Source: a virus
Length of the DNA stretch: 20,469 nt
IMG/VR virus record: IMGVR_UViG_3300030616_000091
Span: 1 to 20,469 of that record
Reading direction: 5' to 3' (one strand)
The notes below the pieces were generated by a model, which did not search any database, was not told where the DNA came from, and saw only the letters and a program-made list of their open reading frames with translations. The position numbers and the translations under genes are program-made. Each line of letters starts with the position of its first letter. Within the stretch, counting starts at the first letter, position 1. Below are positions 6,822-20,469 of the stretch, piece by piece.

Positions 6822-7766
6822 ATGTCAAGATTAGCAAAAATACTCGAATATACCTATGCAGGTAATTTGGAAAGGAAAAAACTAATAAATAGACCATCAT
6901 TTCCATATGATATCAAAGAACTTCTTATGAGTGAAGGAATGGAAGCAGATACAATATTAACCGAGGAATTACAAGGAGCACTAATAGATGGAGCAGAAAA
7001 GAGATCAGTAATAAGAAAAATATTGCCAATAATAAAAGTTAGTAAATATAAAGCAATTGTTCCTACCAATATATCACCTAGTGGAGTAGTAGGTCCAACA
7101 GCAGAAGGAGCAGTTCCAGCAAGTCTTGAAGGTTCATACTCATCAGGCTCATTATCTATTAATAAATATTCTACTAAAATAGGAATAACTAATGAAATGA
7201 TAGAGGATTGCCAATGGGACGTTATTGAATATCAAGTTAAAAGAGCAGGTGCTCTATTAGAAAACACATTAAATAAAGATGGCATGACAGAACTCTTAGA
7301 TGGACATAATGGTACATCTCCAGCTGATAAAGATCCAGCTAGTTCTCACTTTGAATTAGCAGACCTTGCAGATATAAAGAATACCCTTATGGATAAATAT
7401 TGGGGTGGTGGAGGATTATCATTTATAGGACATCCAGAGGCAATACAATTCTTACTAGATAGTGATGCATTGGCAGTAAACGTAGTTCCGAACCAAGGCG
7501 GACAATTACTTGGTGTTGATATTTATGAATTAAATACTCCTATAGGAAGTGCTACAAATTATTGGGATGCTACAGATGCTGCAAACCATTATTATGGAAT
7601 CGTTCTAGATACAGATAATTACGCTGTAATTGGTATGAGAGATGATATACATATAACAAAAGAAGTGAAGGATCCAATACATGACCTAACACAATTAATA
7701 GCTAGTATGAGATTTGATGTTAAGGTCATAAATAGTAAAGCAGCTGTTAGGATTTTAAGTAAGTGA
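6822..7766 (+). CDS. Major capsid protein paralog 1 (HK97 fold)
   Basis: The shell-forming protein of the head. The 314-aa product carries a typical HK97 N-arm (MSRLAKILEYTYAGN), an E-loop/P-domain region ending GITNEMIEDCQWDVIEYQVKR, and the usual C-terminal end KDPIHDLTQLIASMRFDVKV. It is clearly paralogous to the protein at 11341: the N-terminal 21 residues, the ITNEMIED motif, and the DPIHDL-x5-MR end are shared. It lacks an ~11-residue N-terminal insertion present in that paralog and has a GGGGL loop of its own. Both may build one shell, or one may be a minor or alternative capsid protein. Start chosen at the ATG matching the paralog. Confidence 0.85.
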   Translation: MSRLAKILEYTYAGNLERKKLINRPSFPYDIKELLMSEGMEADTILTEELQGALIDGAEKRSVIRKILPIIKVSKYKAIVPTNISPSGVVGPTAEGAVPASLEGSYSSGSLSINKYSTKIGITNEMIEDCQWDVIEYQVKRAGALLENTLNKDGMTELLDGHNGTSPADKDPASSHFELADLADIKNTLMDKYWGGGGLSFIGHPEAIQFLLDSDALAVNVVPNQGGQLLGVDIYELNTPIGSATNYWDATDAANHYYGIVLDTDNYAVIGMRDDIHITKEVKDPIHDLTQLIASMRFDVKVINSKAAVRILSK

Positions 7767-11273: not shown

Positions 11274-11340
11274 TTACGTTCATTATTATAATGAAAACAT
11301 GTATGTCTATCTTATGTTTATAATAAATTAAGTGATTTGT

Positions 11341-12321
11341 ATGAGTAAACTAACAAAAATGCTGGAGTATGCCTATGCTGGTAACGTAGAGAGAAAGAAA
11401 TTAGCAAACAAAGAAAGCTTTAAGAAAACAGTACTAGATACATTACCAAGAGAAAGACGTGAATTACTTCTAAATGAGGGAATGGAATCAGACACATTAC
11501 TTCAAGAAGAGGTATATAGTACCATCGTAGAAGGATCAAAACCACTACAATGCGTAAGAAACGTATTTCCAATAATCAATACTAATACATATCAAGTACG
11601 TATCACAAAAGAAAGTGGTAACTTAGGTAAAGCTGTAGATGTAGCAGAAGGAGCTGCAATACCAATTGACACAGAAACATTCAGTACAGTTGACTTAGTA
11701 ATCAAAAAAGTTGGTACAAGACCAGTAATTACCAATGAAATGATTGAAGATGGTCTCTGGGATATGGTAGAATTCGAGTTGATGAGAGCTGGCCAAAAGA
11801 TTGAACACAAACTCAACTATGATGTAATCAATGAAGCAACTGATAAAACTACATATGCTGCAATATCTAACGTAAATGCAGGAGCTGCTTTTACATTAGC
11901 TAATGTACTTGAAGCAATTAAAGACATTCTTGACTATGATTATGTTCCAACAGATATGATCATGACTCCATTTGCTGAACACAATCTTATTAGTTCAAAT
12001 AACTTACTACAGGCTCATATGGCAGGTAGCGATGCTGCTTTAAGAAACTATGACCTAGGTAAGATATTCGGATTAAATCTACATAGATTAACAGTAGACG
12101 GATGGACAACTGGAACATATAAGTGGAATTCTGGAAACGACACAGCTAACGATGTACACGCATTAGTTTGTGACCCATCATACTGTTTCATCGGTATGAG
12201 AAGGGATATTACAGTAGAACAATACGATGACCCAATCCATGACCTTATAGGTATAGCTGCAACAATGAGATATGGTGTCAAGACAGTTCAACCAGAAAAA
12301 GCTTGTATCATAGAGCATTAA
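11341..12321 (+). CDS. Major capsid protein paralog 2 (HK97 fold)
   Basis: The 326-aa product is an HK97-type capsid protein: N-arm MSKLTKMLEYAYAGNVERKK, the segment VITNEMIEDGLWDMVEFELM, an A-domain with MIMTPFAEHNLI, and C-terminal YDDPIHDLIGIAATMRYGVK. The start is the ATG at 11341, not the in-frame GTG at 11332: the ATG reproduces the paralog's N-terminus at 6822 exactly and GTGAT upstream serves as ribosome binding site. It has an ~11-residue insertion near residue 30 (VLDTLPRERRE) absent from paralog 1. It stands as its own unit with the decoration gene, ended by a strong terminator, as expected for the most abundant virion protein. Confidence 0.9.
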   Translation: MSKLTKMLEYAYAGNVERKKLANKESFKKTVLDTLPRERRELLLNEGMESDTLLQEEVYSTIVEGSKPLQCVRNVFPIINTNTYQVRITKESGNLGKAVDVAEGAAIPIDTETFSTVDLVIKKVGTRPVITNEMIEDGLWDMVEFELMRAGQKIEHKLNYDVINEATDKTTYAAISNVNAGAAFTLANVLEAIKDILDYDYVPTDMIMTPFAEHNLISSNNLLQAHMAGSDAALRNYDLGKIFGLNLHRLTVDGWTTGTYKWNSGNDTANDVHALVCDPSYCFIGMRRDITVEQYDDPIHDLIGIAATMRYGVKTVQPEKACIIEH

Positions 12322-14564: not shown

Positions 14565-15002
14565 ATGGCACTATTAACTGGAGAAGATTGTAGTATCATG
14601 ATTGGAGATTCTCATACGCAAGAAACAGTTTATGGTTTATCAGATTTCTCTTTCTCTATAGATAGAGGAACAATAGAACAGGAACTAGTAGGTGCTGCAG
14701 GTAATTACTACACCCAAGGAGCAATGAGTCTAGAAGGTAGTTTAACTAATTGTAGATTTGCAGCTTCTGGTAATTGTGAGTTCCTTAATAGTATTATTGA
14801 TGGAACTGTAGTAAAAATATCTGGACAGATAGATTCTTCTGATAGTCTTCATTTTGTTCTAATATCTTGCCAAGTAACTGGATATGATATATCTATAGGA
14901 GACGCATCAACTATTACTGAAGCTTCAATCGACTTTACACTCATGGATCCAAAAAACCTAACTTATACTGTCGGTCCACCTAATAAAATATACGAGAGCT
15001 GA
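14565..15002 (+). CDS. Major tail protein paralog 1
   Basis: Tail-tube protein candidate. The 145-aa product is beta-rich with the pattern GLSDFSFSIDRGTIEQELVGAAGN, YTQGAMSLEGSLT and ISIGDASTITEASIDFTLMDP. The next gene encodes a clear paralog with the same three blocks (DFSxxIDRGT, EQELVG/EKELVG, FTQGAL/YTQGAM, IGDASTxTExSIDFTLxDP). Position after the tail terminator and before the assembly chaperone fits a tail-tube role. Whether both subunits build one tube or one is a tip/cap protein cannot be told. Six nt separate them, so they are co-translated. Confidence 0.75.
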   Translation: MALLTGEDCSIMIGDSHTQETVYGLSDFSFSIDRGTIEQELVGAAGNYYTQGAMSLEGSLTNCRFAASGNCEFLNSIIDGTVVKISGQIDSSDSLHFVLISCQVTGYDISIGDASTITEASIDFTLMDPKNLTYTVGPPNKIYES

Positions 15003-15008
15003 TAGAAT

Positions 15009-15458
15009 ATGGCAACAACCCCAAGAACATATACTGGTGAAGATGCAACTATAAAGATAAGTGGTTTAGGACAAGCTAGCTTTGCAATAGGTGACTTTTC
15101 ATTAACTATTGACAGAGGAACCGTTGAGAAAGAACTAGTAGGTGAAGCAGGAAATAAATTTACACAAGGAGCACTATCTGTTGAAGGTTCATTCACACAA
15201 GCAGAATTTGGAGATAAAGCAGTAAATGCAATAGTTGGTTCATTGATCAATGGAACAATGGTTTCAGTATCTGGAACAAGCGGTGTAGATAGTTTACATT
15301 GGTATCTAAAATCTTGTCAAATTACAAACTTCGAGCTATCATTTGGTGATGCAAGTACTGTCACTGAAGGTTCTATAGACTTTACTCTATTGGACCCATA
15401 TAACTTAACTAAGACGTTCTATCATGGTGGCGGAAGCGGTATGAGAATATACGACTAA
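15009..15458 (+). CDS. Major tail protein paralog 2
   Basis: The 149-aa product is a paralog of the preceding gene, sharing the IDRGTxExELVGxAGN, TQGALSVEGSF, GDASTVTEGSIDFTLLDP and C-terminal Tyr-Asp/Tyr-Glu endings. The N-terminus is longer by about four residues and the C-terminus is Gly-rich (YHGGGSGMRIYD). It is slightly less Cys-rich than paralog 1 (one Cys against four). The tandem arrangement suggests duplication; long divergence (roughly half identical by eye) implies both are kept by selection. Confidence 0.75.
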   Translation: MATTPRTYTGEDATIKISGLGQASFAIGDFSLTIDRGTVEKELVGEAGNKFTQGALSVEGSFTQAEFGDKAVNAIVGSLINGTMVSVSGTSGVDSLHWYLKSCQITNFELSFGDASTVTEGSIDFTLLDPYNLTKTFYHGGGSGMRIYD

Positions 15459-15503: not shown

Positions 15504-15989
15504 ATGACAGAAGATTCTAAAAAAACAAAACTAGAAAGAGAAGCAGATAAAATTAGAGAGAGATCTAAACAAGGTTCTGAAAAGAAAATACAAGATTCAA
15601 GAGCACTAATATCAACTAGAACAAAGATAGAAGGAGACTACGATGCAGACCTATTAAAGGTCACTTTTGATACATCTCCTGAAACAAGAAGAACCATATT
15701 AGCTAAAAAACCAACTAATAAAGAGATGATAACTATAATGAGGTTATCAGCAGAGGCTGCAAAGTATGAAGGAAATGCAGACCCTGATTCATTAGTTAAG
15801 ATGGTTGAAATATACGAGAAGCTCAGTAGCATAGCTGATAAGTTATCTACCGATAAAAACTTAGATGAGGAATTCTGGAATGAGAAAGTTTCATTTTCTA
15901 CTTTACAGAACTTCATTACTCAATTAATAACAGAATCCCAAAGGGGAACAGGAGTTACTGAAGAAGAACTAAAGAAATTTCGTAAATAG
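15504..15989 (+). CDS. Tail assembly chaperone, G frame
   Basis: The 161-aa product is highly charged and helical (KKTKLEREADKIRERSK at the start; a helical core at 66-110) and lies between the major tail genes and the following virion gene. That is the position and character of lambda gpG-type chaperones, which hold the tape measure during tail assembly. ATG is supported by a GGAGG site 7 nt upstream. The frame ends EELKKFRK, then TAG. Just before the stop, the ribosome can shift +1 at TTT-CGT to enter the T frame. Arg codons in this gene are nine AGA/AGG and a single CGT, and that one is at the shift site. Confidence 0.7.
   Translation: MTEDSKKTKLEREADKIRERSKQGSEKKIQDSRALISTRTKIEGDYDADLLKVTFDTSPETRRTILAKKPTNKEMITIMRLSAEAAKYEGNADPDSLVKMVEIYEKLSSIADKLSTDKNLDEEFWNEKVSFSTLQNFITQLITESQRGTGVTEEELKKFRK
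15978..15983 (+). promoter_or_regulatory. Predicted +1 frameshift site TTT-CGT
   Basis: Phe codon TTT (residue 159 of the G frame) is followed by the rare Arg codon CGT. tRNA-Phe can re-pair on the overlapping TTC, after which GTA and AAT are read in the T frame. The two frames overlap only from 15973 (after TAA in the +1 frame) to 15989 (TAG in the G frame), so any shift must occur in this 17-nt window, and TTT-C is the only classical +1 slippery tetranucleotide in it. Confidence 0.6.
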
Positions 15990-16176
15990 TGGATTTGGCT
16001 TTATAGAATTTGAGGTTTGTAAATTACTAGGCAAATCCCCAAAGGAGATAAACCAACTAAGAAAAGATAATCCAGATGGAATAGCTTTTCTAGAATACTA
16101 TATACTAGATACTAGACAGAAAGAAATAAAAGCACAAAAGAAAGCTAATCAAAGAGCTAAACATAAAAGGAGATAA
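15982..16176 (+). CDS. Tail assembly chaperone, T-frame extension (expressed by +1 frameshift)
   Basis: The open frame 15973-16173 has no ATG, GTG or TTG in its first part and a stop on each side, so it must be reached by shift from the G frame. It would add 64 residues to residue 159, giving a 223-aa GT fusion. The extension begins VNSGFGFIEFEVCKLLGKSP, has a helical centre (EINQLRKDNPDGIAFLEYYI) and ends in a Lys/Arg tail. Short T domains with basic C-termini are usual for GT fusions. Its codon use (AGA, ATA, GCT) matches real genes here. The stop overlaps a TAATG. Confidence 0.65.
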   Translation, partial: VNSGFGFIEFEVCKLLGKSPKEINQLRKDNPDGIAFLEYYILDTRQKEIKAQKKANQRAKHKRR

Positions 16177-16213: not shown

Positions 16214-16840
16214 ATGGCAGCAGATGTATATGTCTGTGAGATGAATGGTGCTTCTTGGGCACTAGGTAATCAAACTAAACTTAGCGGTGCAGGGGTATCA
16301 GTAACTGCAAGATATTGTACTATGGATAGTGCGGCTCCTGGTGATGCAAATCCTATACCAATTCCAACAGAGGCTTATAATCCAAGTTATTGGAAGAATC
16401 ATTACTTATTGTTTAGTGGTAGTAATGGTGGTTCATATGACTTTACATATGTGTCCTCAATCAGATGGTATTGTGATGGTGACCTATTCGGATGGAATGA
16501 TTTAAAGACATCTGGTATGGTACTATTAATGGATGCATCTGGAGATGGAAGTGCATATGGAGTAACTAGTGGAAATTATGATCAAGCTACTGGAGCACAA
16601 GGAACTTCTGGTGCAAAGATAGGTGAACATAGTGCATGGAATTCTGCAAGTAGCCAAGCTTCTGGTATTAACTCATTAGGTAATGCAATTACAGTAGATG
16701 AAAGGAAAATTGAACCAAACGATACTGCTGGATTTGTATGGTCTAAACACTTAGTACATCAAGCATGGGTAGGTGTAGACGCAGCTTCAGGAAATCCAGG
16801 AACAGAAACATATACTTGGGTTTGGGACGAAGTATCTTAA
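16214..16840 (+). CDS. Beta-rich virion protein (unknown tail or surface role)
   Basis: The 208-aa product is a Gly/Ala/Ser/Trp-rich protein, likely all-beta, starting MAADVYVCEMNGASWALGN. It has a YDFTYVSSIRWYCDGDLFGWND core and ends with a QAWVGVDAASGNPGTETYTWVWDEVS strand pattern. It resembles families of structural proteins in archaeal and environmental tailed viruses, but I cannot name one. It lies where a tape measure gene would normally follow the chaperone, yet it is far too short and lacks long helices. An AGGTAG site and ATGTTATA (16188) precede the ATG. Confidence 0.6.
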   Translation: MAADVYVCEMNGASWALGNQTKLSGAGVSVTARYCTMDSAAPGDANPIPIPTEAYNPSYWKNHYLLFSGSNGGSYDFTYVSSIRWYCDGDLFGWNDLKTSGMVLLMDASGDGSAYGVTSGNYDQATGAQGTSGAKIGEHSAWNSASSQASGINSLGNAITVDERKIEPNDTAGFVWSKHLVHQAWVGVDAASGNPGTETYTWVWDEVS

Positions 16841-16852
16841 ATGTTATAATGT
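16841..16852 (+). promoter_or_regulatory. Late-gene motif copy 6 (exact ATGTTATAATGT)
   Basis: It starts on the base after the TAA stop and is followed by TTTTATTTG, much like copy 1. The zinc-ribbon gene begins 33 nt later with an AGGAGG ribosome binding site between. Confidence 0.55.
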
Positions 16853-16885
16853 TTTATTTGTAATTTTCAGGAGGACTGCAATAAA

Positions 16886-17566
16886 ATGCAAGATGACAAG
16901 GTATTCAAACCTCAATTAATTTCTAATAAAAAAGATGGTGCATGGTTATGGATGTGGATGGCTCATTATAGTGATGGGACTTCATTACCACAATACGATC
17001 CATATACCTTAAAAACACACACCTTTAGAGAAGTAAATCAAGATAAATTAATTAAATTTGGATTATATCCATTTCCACCAACATTAGCTAGAAGACTTGT
17101 AGAAGAAAAAGGAATAAATGTTAGGTCTAATATATTCTTACCTAGATACGAAGTTAATATCAAGGAAGGAATGAGAGTTATAGGTGCTTTAACTACTAAC
17201 TTCTCAAGAACTACAACTTATATAATATGTCCAAGTTGTAATAGAAAGTTTAAATCTTCACAAGTTAAGTTTTCAAATATAGGTGGGAATGTTAAAACAC
17301 ATATATGTCCTGAATGTGGGGCACAATCACATTGGTTTTGTAAGAAATGTGGTAAGATATATAAACACATAAACAAAACTGATAATTGGAAGTGTACTAA
17401 ATGTGGTACTAGAGTTGCTGGTAATAGAGTACAATTCCAAACAGATAGTTTAGAAGAAAGATGGAGAATCTATAAATTAGGATATCAAGAAACTATTAAA
17501 GGAGTTAACCATAAGACAATTATGGAGATATCTGAAAATGGTGATGTCGAAATGAAATATAAGTGA
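16886..17566 (+). CDS. Zinc-ribbon protein, 226 aa
   Basis: Not assigned to a family. The N-terminal half (about 15-65: DGAWLWMWMAHYSDGTSLPQ, then YDPYTLKTHTFREVNQDKL, FGLYPFPP) reads as an aromatic-rich domain. The second half has four CxxC motifs: C115/C118, C141/C144, C152/C155 and C170/C173. Together these can hold two zinc ribbons. The C-terminus (KTIMEISENGDVEMKYK) is a strand pair. A strong AGGAGG site (16869-16874) supports the start. Being between tail genes and a giant surface protein, a tail-tip or baseplate role is possible, as is nucleic-acid binding. Confidence 0.65.
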   Translation: MQDDKVFKPQLISNKKDGAWLWMWMAHYSDGTSLPQYDPYTLKTHTFREVNQDKLIKFGLYPFPPTLARRLVEEKGINVRSNIFLPRYEVNIKEGMRVIGALTTNFSRTTTYIICPSCNRKFKSSQVKFSNIGGNVKTHICPECGAQSHWFCKKCGKIYKHINKTDNWKCTKCGTRVAGNRVQFQTDSLEERWRIYKLGYQETIKGVNHKTIMEISENGDVEMKYK

Positions 17567-17694
17567 AATAAGTAATTAGTAAGTCTAATGTCAAAGAAAC
17601 TATTTTGATATACAATTACACTTAGACCTCTATTAGTCTTGTTTCAATGTTTTTCTGTATTTAACTAGATGTAAGACTATTTGCTATTTAGTAA
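17567..17694 (+). promoter_or_regulatory. Intergenic region before the giant surface protein
   Basis: These 128 bp contain no gene. AGTCTT (17635-17640) and AAGACT (17673-17678) are inverted copies, and an AAGTCTAAT stretch near 17580 adds a related sequence. No exact late motif and no clear Shine-Dalgarno site is present before the ATG at 17695; a TATTTA stretch near 17685 is too close to act as a TATA box for a leaderless start. Nothing further can be called. Confidence 0.3.
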
Positions 17695-20469
17695 ATGATT
17701 ATTTGGATTATATTAGGTTTATTAGGACTCGTTTCGAGTTTGATTATATGGAAATATGAAAGTATTTCTATTTGGATAAAGAATAACTGGAAGAAGTTAT
17801 TATCTGCTATATTAATTGGTGGGATTGTTACTGGAGGATTAATATTGAGTGAACCACCAATACCTCCTACTGAGGATATAGATTGTGCTGCTTATATTTG
17901 GCATCAAGGAAATGGAATTGGTTCTTTTTCATATTGGGAAGTTAATAAAACCTATGCAAAAGATTTTTTGAAAGATAATATTAAATGGAGACTAAAAGCA
18001 TCTCCAGATAATAATACTTGGTATGATGCTGATGAACTTTTAGATATAGATTTAGATTGGAATGATACTGGTTTTTATTATAAGATTACTCTAACACTAG
18101 ATACTCATGAAGCACCACAAAGTTTATATTATCGTTTTGATCTTGCTCTTAATAAGAGCCTTAAAGATTACGTTGAAGTAGATGGCTATGAGTGGAGGTT
18201 TAAGGTTCCAGCTAATAATACTCGTGACTATTCTATTTTAATTAATTGGTCTGATATTAAACCTTTAATTAGCAATAATAAAGTTTGGTTTGATAGAGGA
18301 GTAAAAAATAACTTTTTTTGGTTTAGAATTCAAACTGTAAATAAGATTCCTGTTGATACAATATTTATAGTTGACCCAGCAATTGGTATGATTACTGATA
18401 GTGCTATAGATACTTGGGAAATAGACCCACAAGAATTAGAATATGGTGGACTCTATGCAACAGTTAATTTAGGAGATAGTGAGTATTATGCAACTGTTAA
18501 ATCTGGAGATACAGGTACGGATAATGATGGATTTATACGTACCTTTAAAATATATGATAACAATGGAACAATACACAAAACTCTAATTGACAGTTGGGAG
18601 TATGAGACAAGTTCAGCATATACTCCAACAATAACTCATGTTTCAGGAACTACATATTTTATTACATATAGAACTGGACAAATGGCAGATGATGGAGAAG
18701 TAGCTACTGTGACTATTTCAGATGCAGGAGTTATAACAAAATCTTTTTTAGATACTGACACAACAACAAATCCTCTTCATAATCCTTGTACTATTCTTGC
18801 AAATGATGGATTAATTGTTACGACTTATGCAGATTATGGAAGTCAATATGATTTTCAAATTGATACTTTTACTGTAACCGCTGCTGGGGCAATAACAGGA
18901 GTTGTAGACAATGAAGAATTTCTTTCATCTCCAGATGACTTAGCATCAGGAATTTCTTGTATTATGGTAGATGATGATACATTATTAATAGTACATTGTG
19001 GTGAAAATTCTGTTCTTAGTCCTTGGAATCTCTATGCTCTTACTTATAACATAAGTTCAGATGGTTCAATAGATGACGACCCATCAGATTCTTGGGATTT
19101 TGGTTCAAAGGCTTTTTCTGCTGCAGTTCATGAAGTAGGGGATAATGTATTTTTGATTGGATATACAACTGATGATGGTGACGATGGGTGGCTTTCAACA
19201 TTAGAAGTGGATGATGATGGAAAAATTACAGATGATCTTATTGATTCATATGAATTTTATGCCACTGCTTCAGTAATATATGGCAAGGGTATTTTTACAA
19301 TTTCAGATGCTTCTTCAGGAGTATATGGAATATCTTATAGTGATGGTACAGGGGATGGGTTTGTTTCTACTATAAATGTTACAAGTGCAGGAGAGATAGA
19401 TGATGAGTTGATAGATACTATGGAATTTGATGAAGCTGATTTCAAATCTACCACTGATAAGTTTATAAATGTAGATGATAATTATTATATGATTTGTTAT
19501 ACTGGTACAGGTTCTGATGGTTTTGTAAAAACAATAGAGATTGAATCACCAACATTTTCAATAATATCTAATGAAGGTCCTTCATCTGGTTCTTTTAATG
19601 CCTCAATTTCTCCCACATGTAATGTAACAGTTGAGGACATTAAAGGACGAACTATGGATGTTAGTTTTTATACTTCATCTGATAATGTATCTTTTACACA
19701 CCAACAAACTAATACTAGTGTGAATAATGGAAGTTATGAGTTTGTTTATTCAGGAGCTACTTTATATCAGACTACTTATTATTGGAAAGTTACTGCTGAA
19801 AATTCAGATGGATTTAATATTTCTAGTGATGGTTATGAATTTGAGACAACTCCATATAGGTCTTTATATTTTAATGATACATTCCCTAATGAAAATTGGA
19901 TAGATAGTTCTCATAATATGACATTTGAAGCTGGTTGGGAGAATTTTACTTATAGTTCATCTTCTTCTGGTAATCTCCATTATTCAGTAGGTGCTGGTGT
20001 TAATGATGCTCATGAAGGTGATGGTGGTGCTGGTTATAGTAGAACATTAACCTATTGTTTGTGCTATGCTGACTCATCAGCTGGTAGTAGGTATAATGGT
20101 GGATTTGTTTTTACTGGTGTTGAAGTACCTCAAGGAGCAACAATTGATAGTGCTGCTATGTATTTTGAACCATATAATCATGATAGTTACGATGACCCTA
20201 ATGTAGATATATATGCTGAAGATGAAGATAGTGCTAATAACTTTGATGATGAAGAGGACGTAACATCTAGAACTAGAACTACTGCTAGTGTATCTTGGGT
20301 AGATTCTAATATAAGAGGATCATTTGTTTATACTCCTGATATAAAATCTCCTATACAAGAAGTTATTAATAGGGGAGGGTGGTCTTCAGGAAATAATCTT
20401 TGTATTCTAGTAGATGGAAAATCTACAGAGTCTCCTGACTTAATTATTTATTCTTATGAATTAGGAGAC
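17695..20469 (+). CDS. Giant membrane-anchored beta-rich surface protein (3'-incomplete)
   Basis: The frame is open for 925 codons and runs off the window. A stop codon directly precedes the ATG, so this start is firm. Residues 2-20 (IIWIILGLLGLVSSLIIWK) and about 33-53 are hydrophobic and could be two membrane segments or an anchor. From about 255 to 620 there are repeats of ~50 residues with a DGF-x-x-T-x-x-I...G-x-I-x-x-x-L-I-D-x-x-E...Y-x-I-x-Y pattern, with partial units at both ends: a beta-propeller, probably seven-bladed. Residues ~623-722 look like a fibronectin-III-type domain (TYYWKVTAENSDGFN, FETTP). Residues ~775-925 resemble a DNRLRE-type carbohydrate-binding module (VPQGATIDSAAMYFEP, SPIQEVINRGGWSSGN). 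Asp-rich, Arg-poor (16 Arg). Likely a host-recognition fibre or cell-surface protein. Confidence 0.75.
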   Translation, partial: MIIWIILGLLGLVSSLIIWKYESISIWIKNNWKKLLSAILIGGIVTGGLILSEPPIPPTEDIDCAAYIWHQGNGIGSFSYWEVNKTYAKDFLKDNIKWRLKASPDNNTWYDADELLDIDLDWNDTGFYYKITLTLDTHEAPQSLYYRFDLALNKSLKDYVEVDGYEWRFKVPANNTRDYSILINWSDIKPLISNNKVWFDRGVKNNFFWFRIQTVNKIPVDTIFIVDPAIGMITDSAIDTWEIDPQELEYGGLYATVNLGDSEYYATVKSGDTGTDNDGFIRTFKIYDNNGTIHKTLIDSWEYETSSAYTPTITHVSGTTYFITYRTGQMADDGEVATVTISDAGVITKSFLDTDTTTNPLHNPCTILANDGLIVTTYADYGSQYDFQIDTFTVTAAGAITGVVDNEEFLSSPDDLASGISCIMVDDDTLLIVHCGENSVLSPWNLYALTYNISSDGSIDDDPSDSWDFGSKAFSAAVHEVGDNVFLIGYTTDDGDDGWLSTLEVDDDGKITDDLIDSYEFYATASVIYGKGIFTISDASSGVYGISYSDGTGDGFVSTINVTSAGEIDDELIDTMEFDEADFKSTTDKFINVDDNYYMICYTGTGSDGFVKTIEIESPTFSIISNEGPSSGSFNASISPTCNVTVEDIKGRTMDVSFYTSSDNVSFTHQQTNTSVNNGSYEFVYSGATLYQTTYYWKVTAENSDGFNISSDGYEFETTPYRSLYFNDTFPNENWIDSSHNMTFEAGWENFTYSSSSSGNLHYSVGAGVNDAHEGDGGAGYSRTLTYCLCYADSSAGSRYNGGFVFTGVEVPQGATIDSAAMYFEPYNHDSYDDPNVDIYAEDEDSANNFDDEEDVTSRTRTTASVSWVDSNIRGSFVYTPDIKSPIQEVINRGGWSSGNNLCILVDGKSTESPDLIIYSYELGD

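Follow-up and report, generated by a model that had tools for sequence, protein, structure and literature searches.

A +1 ribosomal frameshift at UUU_CGU very probably joins the tail assembly chaperone genes G and GT in a group of uncultured, probably archaeal tailed viruses

The 20,469-base IMG/VR virus record IMGVR_UViG_3300030616_000091 (hereafter the window, i.e., the whole stretch of DNA analysed) contains a short gene, G, whose end overlaps an open frame that has no start codon of its own, which raises the question of how this second frame (GT) is translated. We conclude, with a probability of about 0.92, that the two encode tail chaperones of the G/GT type in a tailed, siphovirus-like virus whose host is very probably an archaeon, and that a minority of ribosomes slip by +1 at UUU_CGU to make a 223-aa fusion (Table 1). 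The +1 frame is open from position 15,973 (following TAA at 15,970-15,972) to the TAA at 16,174-16,176; none of its first 15 codons in the window is ATG, GTG or TTG, and an open frame of 64 codons has a chance probability of about 0.003 in a sequence of the window's composition. G ends, in the zero frame, with AAA TTT CGT AAA TAG, and the layout is that of a G/GT pair: two overlapping ORFs, the second without a start, which one shift joins into a fusion of 159 + 64 = 223 amino acids with the junction KKF-VNSG. An initial annotation, made from the letters alone, had described this layout (the end of G, the start-less 64-codon ORF, the 17-nt overlap and the fusion length) exactly as we re-derived it, and had noted that CGT is the sole CGN codon among the arginine codons of G, which agrees with our count (10 codons: seven AGA, two AGG, and one CGT).

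Table 1. Features of the G/GT region of the window (coordinates in bp)
Feature	Coordinates	Strand	Remarks
Tail tube-like protein 1	14565..15002	+	Pfam Phage_tube_2 0.018, below cut-off; 50% identical to tail tube-like protein 2
Tail tube-like protein 2, paralogue of 14565-15002	15009..15458	+	phrog_290 8e-5; kept upstream of G in relatives
G, short tail assembly chaperone (predicted), zero frame	15504..15989	+	161 aa; ATG 15504, TAG 15987-15989
Overlap of the +1 frame with G, 17 nt	15973..15989	+	frame analysis
AAA codon preceding the slip site	15975..15977	+	among 31 sequences: AAA 16, TCC 13, ACC 1, AAT 1
TTT CGT slip site	15978..15983	+	TTT 15978-15980 to TTC 15979-15981 (tRNA-Phe); CGT 15981-15983 occupies the A site until the shift; invariant in 31/31
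GT extension, +1 frame	15982..16176	+	64 codons plus stop; own start codon absent

Relatives were collected by scanning 2.9 million viral contigs with G, with alignments of G and GT, and with an alignment of the fusion; the search patterns lie in the middle of G (for nearly all contigs) or within GT, so that the slip region was not used. The scans yielded 36 related contigs from many metagenomes, with identities reaching down to about 45%, and all 36 have a TTT CGT in the zero frame near the end of G, followed by GT in the +1 frame. The distinct sequences number 31 (window included); they share ancestry and are not 31 independent trials. Differences between GT copies amount to 0.48, 0.28 and 0.59 per codon at positions 1, 2 and 3 of the +1 frame; they follow the codon positions of this frame (least at 2, most at 3), so GT evolves under translation, as a protein does. 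For a single contig, a misread or misassembled sequence or a gene in decay could be suspected on prior grounds; the same layout in 36 contigs from many metagenomes, and a GT that evolves as a protein, exclude this. The conservation of TTT-CGT and of the frame arrangement, proposed as a check by the initial annotation, is thus borne out, and the error it had named as the refuting case (homologues with both parts in one frame) is itself refuted by the shared +1 layout.

The slip site shows selection on its nucleotides. When the codons of G were aligned across the 31 sequences, 32 columns proved nearly invariant in an amino acid that more than one codon can encode; only the TTT and the CGT of the slip site are a single codon in all 31 sequences, and the other 30 columns use at least two. 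The other invariant phenylalanine columns of G show TTT/TTC ratios of 16/15, 10/21, and 9/22, and among the other arginine codons of G in the 31 sequences CGT accounts for 18 of 211. The invariance of CGT comes partly from overlapping coding (GTN is valine in the +1 frame, while the zero frame requires arginine). No such constraint bears on the third base of TTT, because the phenylalanine precedes the shift and is in both products; its fixation is the cleanest evidence for selection of a slip site. The preceding TCC codon is likewise free of overlapping-coding constraint: TCC TTT CGT, all nine bases, is found at 13 of the 31 sites, whereas only 8% of the serine codons elsewhere in G are TCC, and on a tree that leaves out the slip-context columns this context switches four or more times, one switch separating the closely related L016 and L023. 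This preference and these repeated changes indicate that a nine-base context, beyond the hexamer, appears to be under selection. The same observations bear on a separately made GT, by re-initiation or from a non-standard start near the stop of G. The stop of G and the head of GT are close to one another, as re-initiation needs, but in 30 of the 31 sequences GT opens without an ATG, GTG or TTG, and a separate start gives no reason for the codon-level freezing of the upstream TTT-CGT; we regard it as highly improbable.

The direction of the shift was addressed by listing the re-pairings possible at the slip region in 36 sequences, a set that includes five of Hafunaviridae. Only one of them, the +1 re-pairing of TTT to TTC, is available to every one of the 36. 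A ribosome that shifted by -2 here would enter the identical frame, with one residue more in the product, and -2 frameshifting is known from phage Mu. GenBank annotates exactly this ("putative programmed translational -2 frameshift") in HRTV-14, HRTV-25, and HRTV-27 (L085, L086 and L087), all of which fit +1. The commonest -2 option (mostly AAA onto AGA, with a central mismatch) is available in only 19 of the 36, is absent at the TCC-TTT-CGT sites, and leaves the invariant TTT without a reason. The re-pairing analysis thus argues indirectly for +1 and makes -2 unlikely, to the point that we give it only a slight chance; it likewise does not support the GenBank annotation of the three haloviruses. 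Transcriptional slippage would also produce a real shift, though not a ribosomal one, and the neighbourhood is A/T-rich; but nearly all sequences have no more than three A or T in a row within the overlap, too short a run for polymerase slippage as it is generally known, which leaves this explanation with almost no probability. We found no conserved downstream mRNA structure (mean z of -0.3 to -0.4) and, by eye, no constant Shine-Dalgarno-like stimulator upstream. A stop codon in the A site was ruled out as a stimulus, the zero-frame stop being 0, 1, 2, or 7 codons past CGT.

Taken together, the programmed +1 shift in G/GT is strongly supported by what was observed here: the frame layout, its conservation, the selection on the slip codons, and the lack of any alternative slip shared by all sequences. 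The central claim of the initial annotation, that TTT-CGT is a programmed +1 slip site of a tail chaperone of the G/GT kind, is upheld by conservation, codon selection, and re-pairing.

The identity of the proteins is suggested by several matches, each modest when taken singly, which together place G and GT in the tail-chaperone fold or family. The GT of the window has a weak match to phrog_9001 (tail assembly chaperone; E 6e-4), and the GT of five out of 29 relatives matches the same family, at best with 6.4e-5. G and GT were modelled separately with AF2 from table-11 translations. The model of G (pLDDT 81) consists of a long N-terminal helix, a beta-hairpin and a helical bundle; it resembles the HK97 tail assembly chaperone 2ob9 (Z 5.3 over 100 residues, a score that unrelated helical proteins reach as well). 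Its matches among viral models include several labelled "pre-tape measure frameshift protein G", "tape measure chaperone frameshift protein", or tail assembly chaperone. GT was modelled as a three-helix protein (pLDDT 87), with only generic helical matches in the PDB.

Gene order is consistent with this assignment, since G/GT lies after tail tube and before tape measure genes, with intervening genes. The connector genes are also upstream of G. Two tail-tube paralogues lie directly before G, an arrangement also seen in the relatives that cover the region. In the usual order the tape measure gene adjoins GT; in the window group it is separated, lying roughly 8-14 kb downstream of GT in relatives, with several genes between. 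The probable tape measure protein of relative G001 (1809 aa, about 14 kb downstream) was named from its size and position, and PHROGs clearly identify its counterpart in G008 as a tape measure. The unusual stretch in between (16,214-20,469 in the window; 16,458-35,145 in G001) encodes a 208-aa protein, a zinc-finger-like protein, and very large surface-type ORFs with an N-terminal membrane segment. The window also encodes two major capsid proteins of the HK97 type, paralogues with about one third identity, at 6,822-7,766 and 11,332-12,321; the latter is found in nearly all relatives, and several (G001 and L007 among them) carry the former as a separate copy.

In the mechanism that we propose, most ribosomes would complete G; in a minority, with tRNA-Phe on UUU in the P site and the CGU arginine codon waiting in the A site, the tRNA-Phe would slip by +1 from UUU to UUC, re-pairing fully through its anticodon GAA, and the ribosome would read on in the +1 frame into the G-GT fusion. 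The strength of the site seems to be set by UUU_CGU together with the preceding codon (AAA or UCC). As in lambda and HK97, there would be two products with a common N-terminus, an abundant G and a frameshift extension GT; by analogy with lambda, G may coat the tape measure protein, the GT extension may recruit tail tube subunits, and a fixed low ratio of G-GT to G would be needed for assembly. We infer that the shift is translational and of low frequency, and the fusion is likely to be made in a small, fixed proportion to G. Lambda, however, is a bacterial phage with a -1 shift (PMC5009743), whereas that of the window group is +1.

The initial annotation had also held that the shift is driven by a rare codon, a claim that the relatives support weakly. 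CGT is indeed uncommon (4-11% of arginine codons in these mostly AT-rich viruses), but it is neither avoided nor unique: it is present elsewhere in the G of many relatives, and in-frame TTT-CGT occurs genome-wide (in mechanical ORF calls) at about chance frequency, so that a shortage of tRNA alone is a poor explanation. A similar point has been made for amalgaviruses (PMC5052127). The haloarchaeal viruses use TTT-CGC though CGC is among their two commonest arginine codons. We therefore reject a rare CGT as the general driver. No viral tRNA-Arg for CGN was found, and the window has no tRNA gene at all. Among the relatives, L074-L076 and L078 (G007 and G009) carry a tRNA-His (gtg), twice in G007, and G007 also has a tRNA-Arg (tct), which matches the favoured arginine codon AGA.

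The archaeal host assumed by the initial annotation is likely, because relatives encode archaeal-type PolB, primase and XPF; for the window itself, the host is read from these relatives. Family B DNA polymerases are encoded by three larger relatives, and that of G006 is nearest to mostly archaeal-type solved structures; archaeo-eukaryotic primase domains were found in G006 and G007, and G007 also encodes an ERCC4-HHH nuclease and a Rad51-like ATPase. No MCM or PCNA was found in the relatives. A search of 84,980 genomes with G/GT and TerL returned no provirus or host, only a 24% match of TerL in a Rhodoferax MAG. The 138-kb G006 (L059-L065) also carries many sugar-nucleotide and glycosyltransferase genes, a PEP mutase, a B12-dependent ribonucleotide reductase, and Thy1.

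Frameshifts of this kind are already known from haloarchaeal viruses: a +1 G/GT shift has been deduced as very likely for HSTV-2 (PMC5009743, PMC8211752), and a +1 shift at TTT-CGC/TTT-CGn was proposed for the HF1 group, with TTT-CGn also noted in eukaryotic viruses (PMC7230728). We found TTT CGC in HSTV-2 (preceded by TCC), Serpecor1, HRTV-14, and HRTV-27, and TTT CGT in HRTV-25, all in frame and with a +1 ORF open behind each; TTT stands at this place in HSTV-2 and HRTV-27 although it makes up only 13-16% of their phenylalanine codons. These Hafunaviridae (HSTV-2 and the HF1 group) are tailed viruses of archaea, as that of the window probably is too, and they share with it a G/GT pair located after the tail tube and before the tape measure gene, a GT that is read in the +1 frame, and TTT-CGC or TTT-CGT at the end of G; they differ in being GC-rich myoviruses with a tail sheath, mostly TTT-CGC, and a tape measure gene directly downstream. 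HHalign comparison of the G/GT profiles of the window group with those of Hafunaviridae gave no match, nor did tblastn of the window's G in isolate phages; these are small proteins that diverge fast. As the G/GT of the two groups are not detectably homologous by profile comparison, the slip site is either very old or convergent between them. Other archaeal G/GT frameshifts, although like that of the window in kind, are -1: those of HVTV-1 and the HCTV viruses HCTV-1/2/5 (Druskaviridae; PMC5009743, PMC8211752) and of HATV-2 (Soleiviridae; record note). A 2021 review counts one demonstrated archaeal -1 frameshift (PMC8211752). The cps/tsh shift of Listeria phage PSA is +1 and in a phage structural gene, but it is bacterial, uses a CCC proline codon, and involves different genes (PMC5009743).

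The slip site also has a likeness, which the initial annotation had not mentioned, in RNA viruses of eukaryotes. All 31 sequences have a UUU P-site codon, a CGN A-site codon, and a +1 ORF, the same P-/A-site pair and direction as in PA-X of influenza A (UCC_UUU_CGU) and in plant amalgaviruses (UUU_CGN); 13 of the 31 sites agree with PA-X in all nine bases, and PA-X also works without an evident stimulatory structure (PMC5052127, PMC7230728, PMC5009743); the proteins are unrelated and the ribosomes eukaryotic, and the same sequence was presumably reached independently. The influenza site shifts at about 1-2% in reticulocyte lysate (quoted in PMC5052127). We tentatively suggest, at somewhat less than even odds, that UUU_CGN, and specifically UCC_UUU_CGU, may be a context-dependent +1 signal on archaeal and eukaryotic ribosomes alike that requires neither RNA structure nor a scarce tRNA; it would reflect a shared property of the decoding centre, tuned by the E-site codon (AAA or UCC), and would have been reached by convergence in two separate lineages of archaeal viruses and in two eukaryotic RNA virus groups.

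What is added here is a second, unrelated-looking lineage of archaeal-type viruses with strong comparative evidence for +1 at TTT-CGT, together with evidence against -2, a selected preceding codon, and evidence against a rare codon as the general driver. The "-2" annotations of GenBank are called into question, and G and GT should be joined in the annotation of a large uncultured virus group. The influenza PA-X site is employed here in what is likely to be another domain of life, and the alignment of 31 sequences, with its frozen TTT-CGT and two preferred preceding codons, makes archaeal +1 frameshifting testable.
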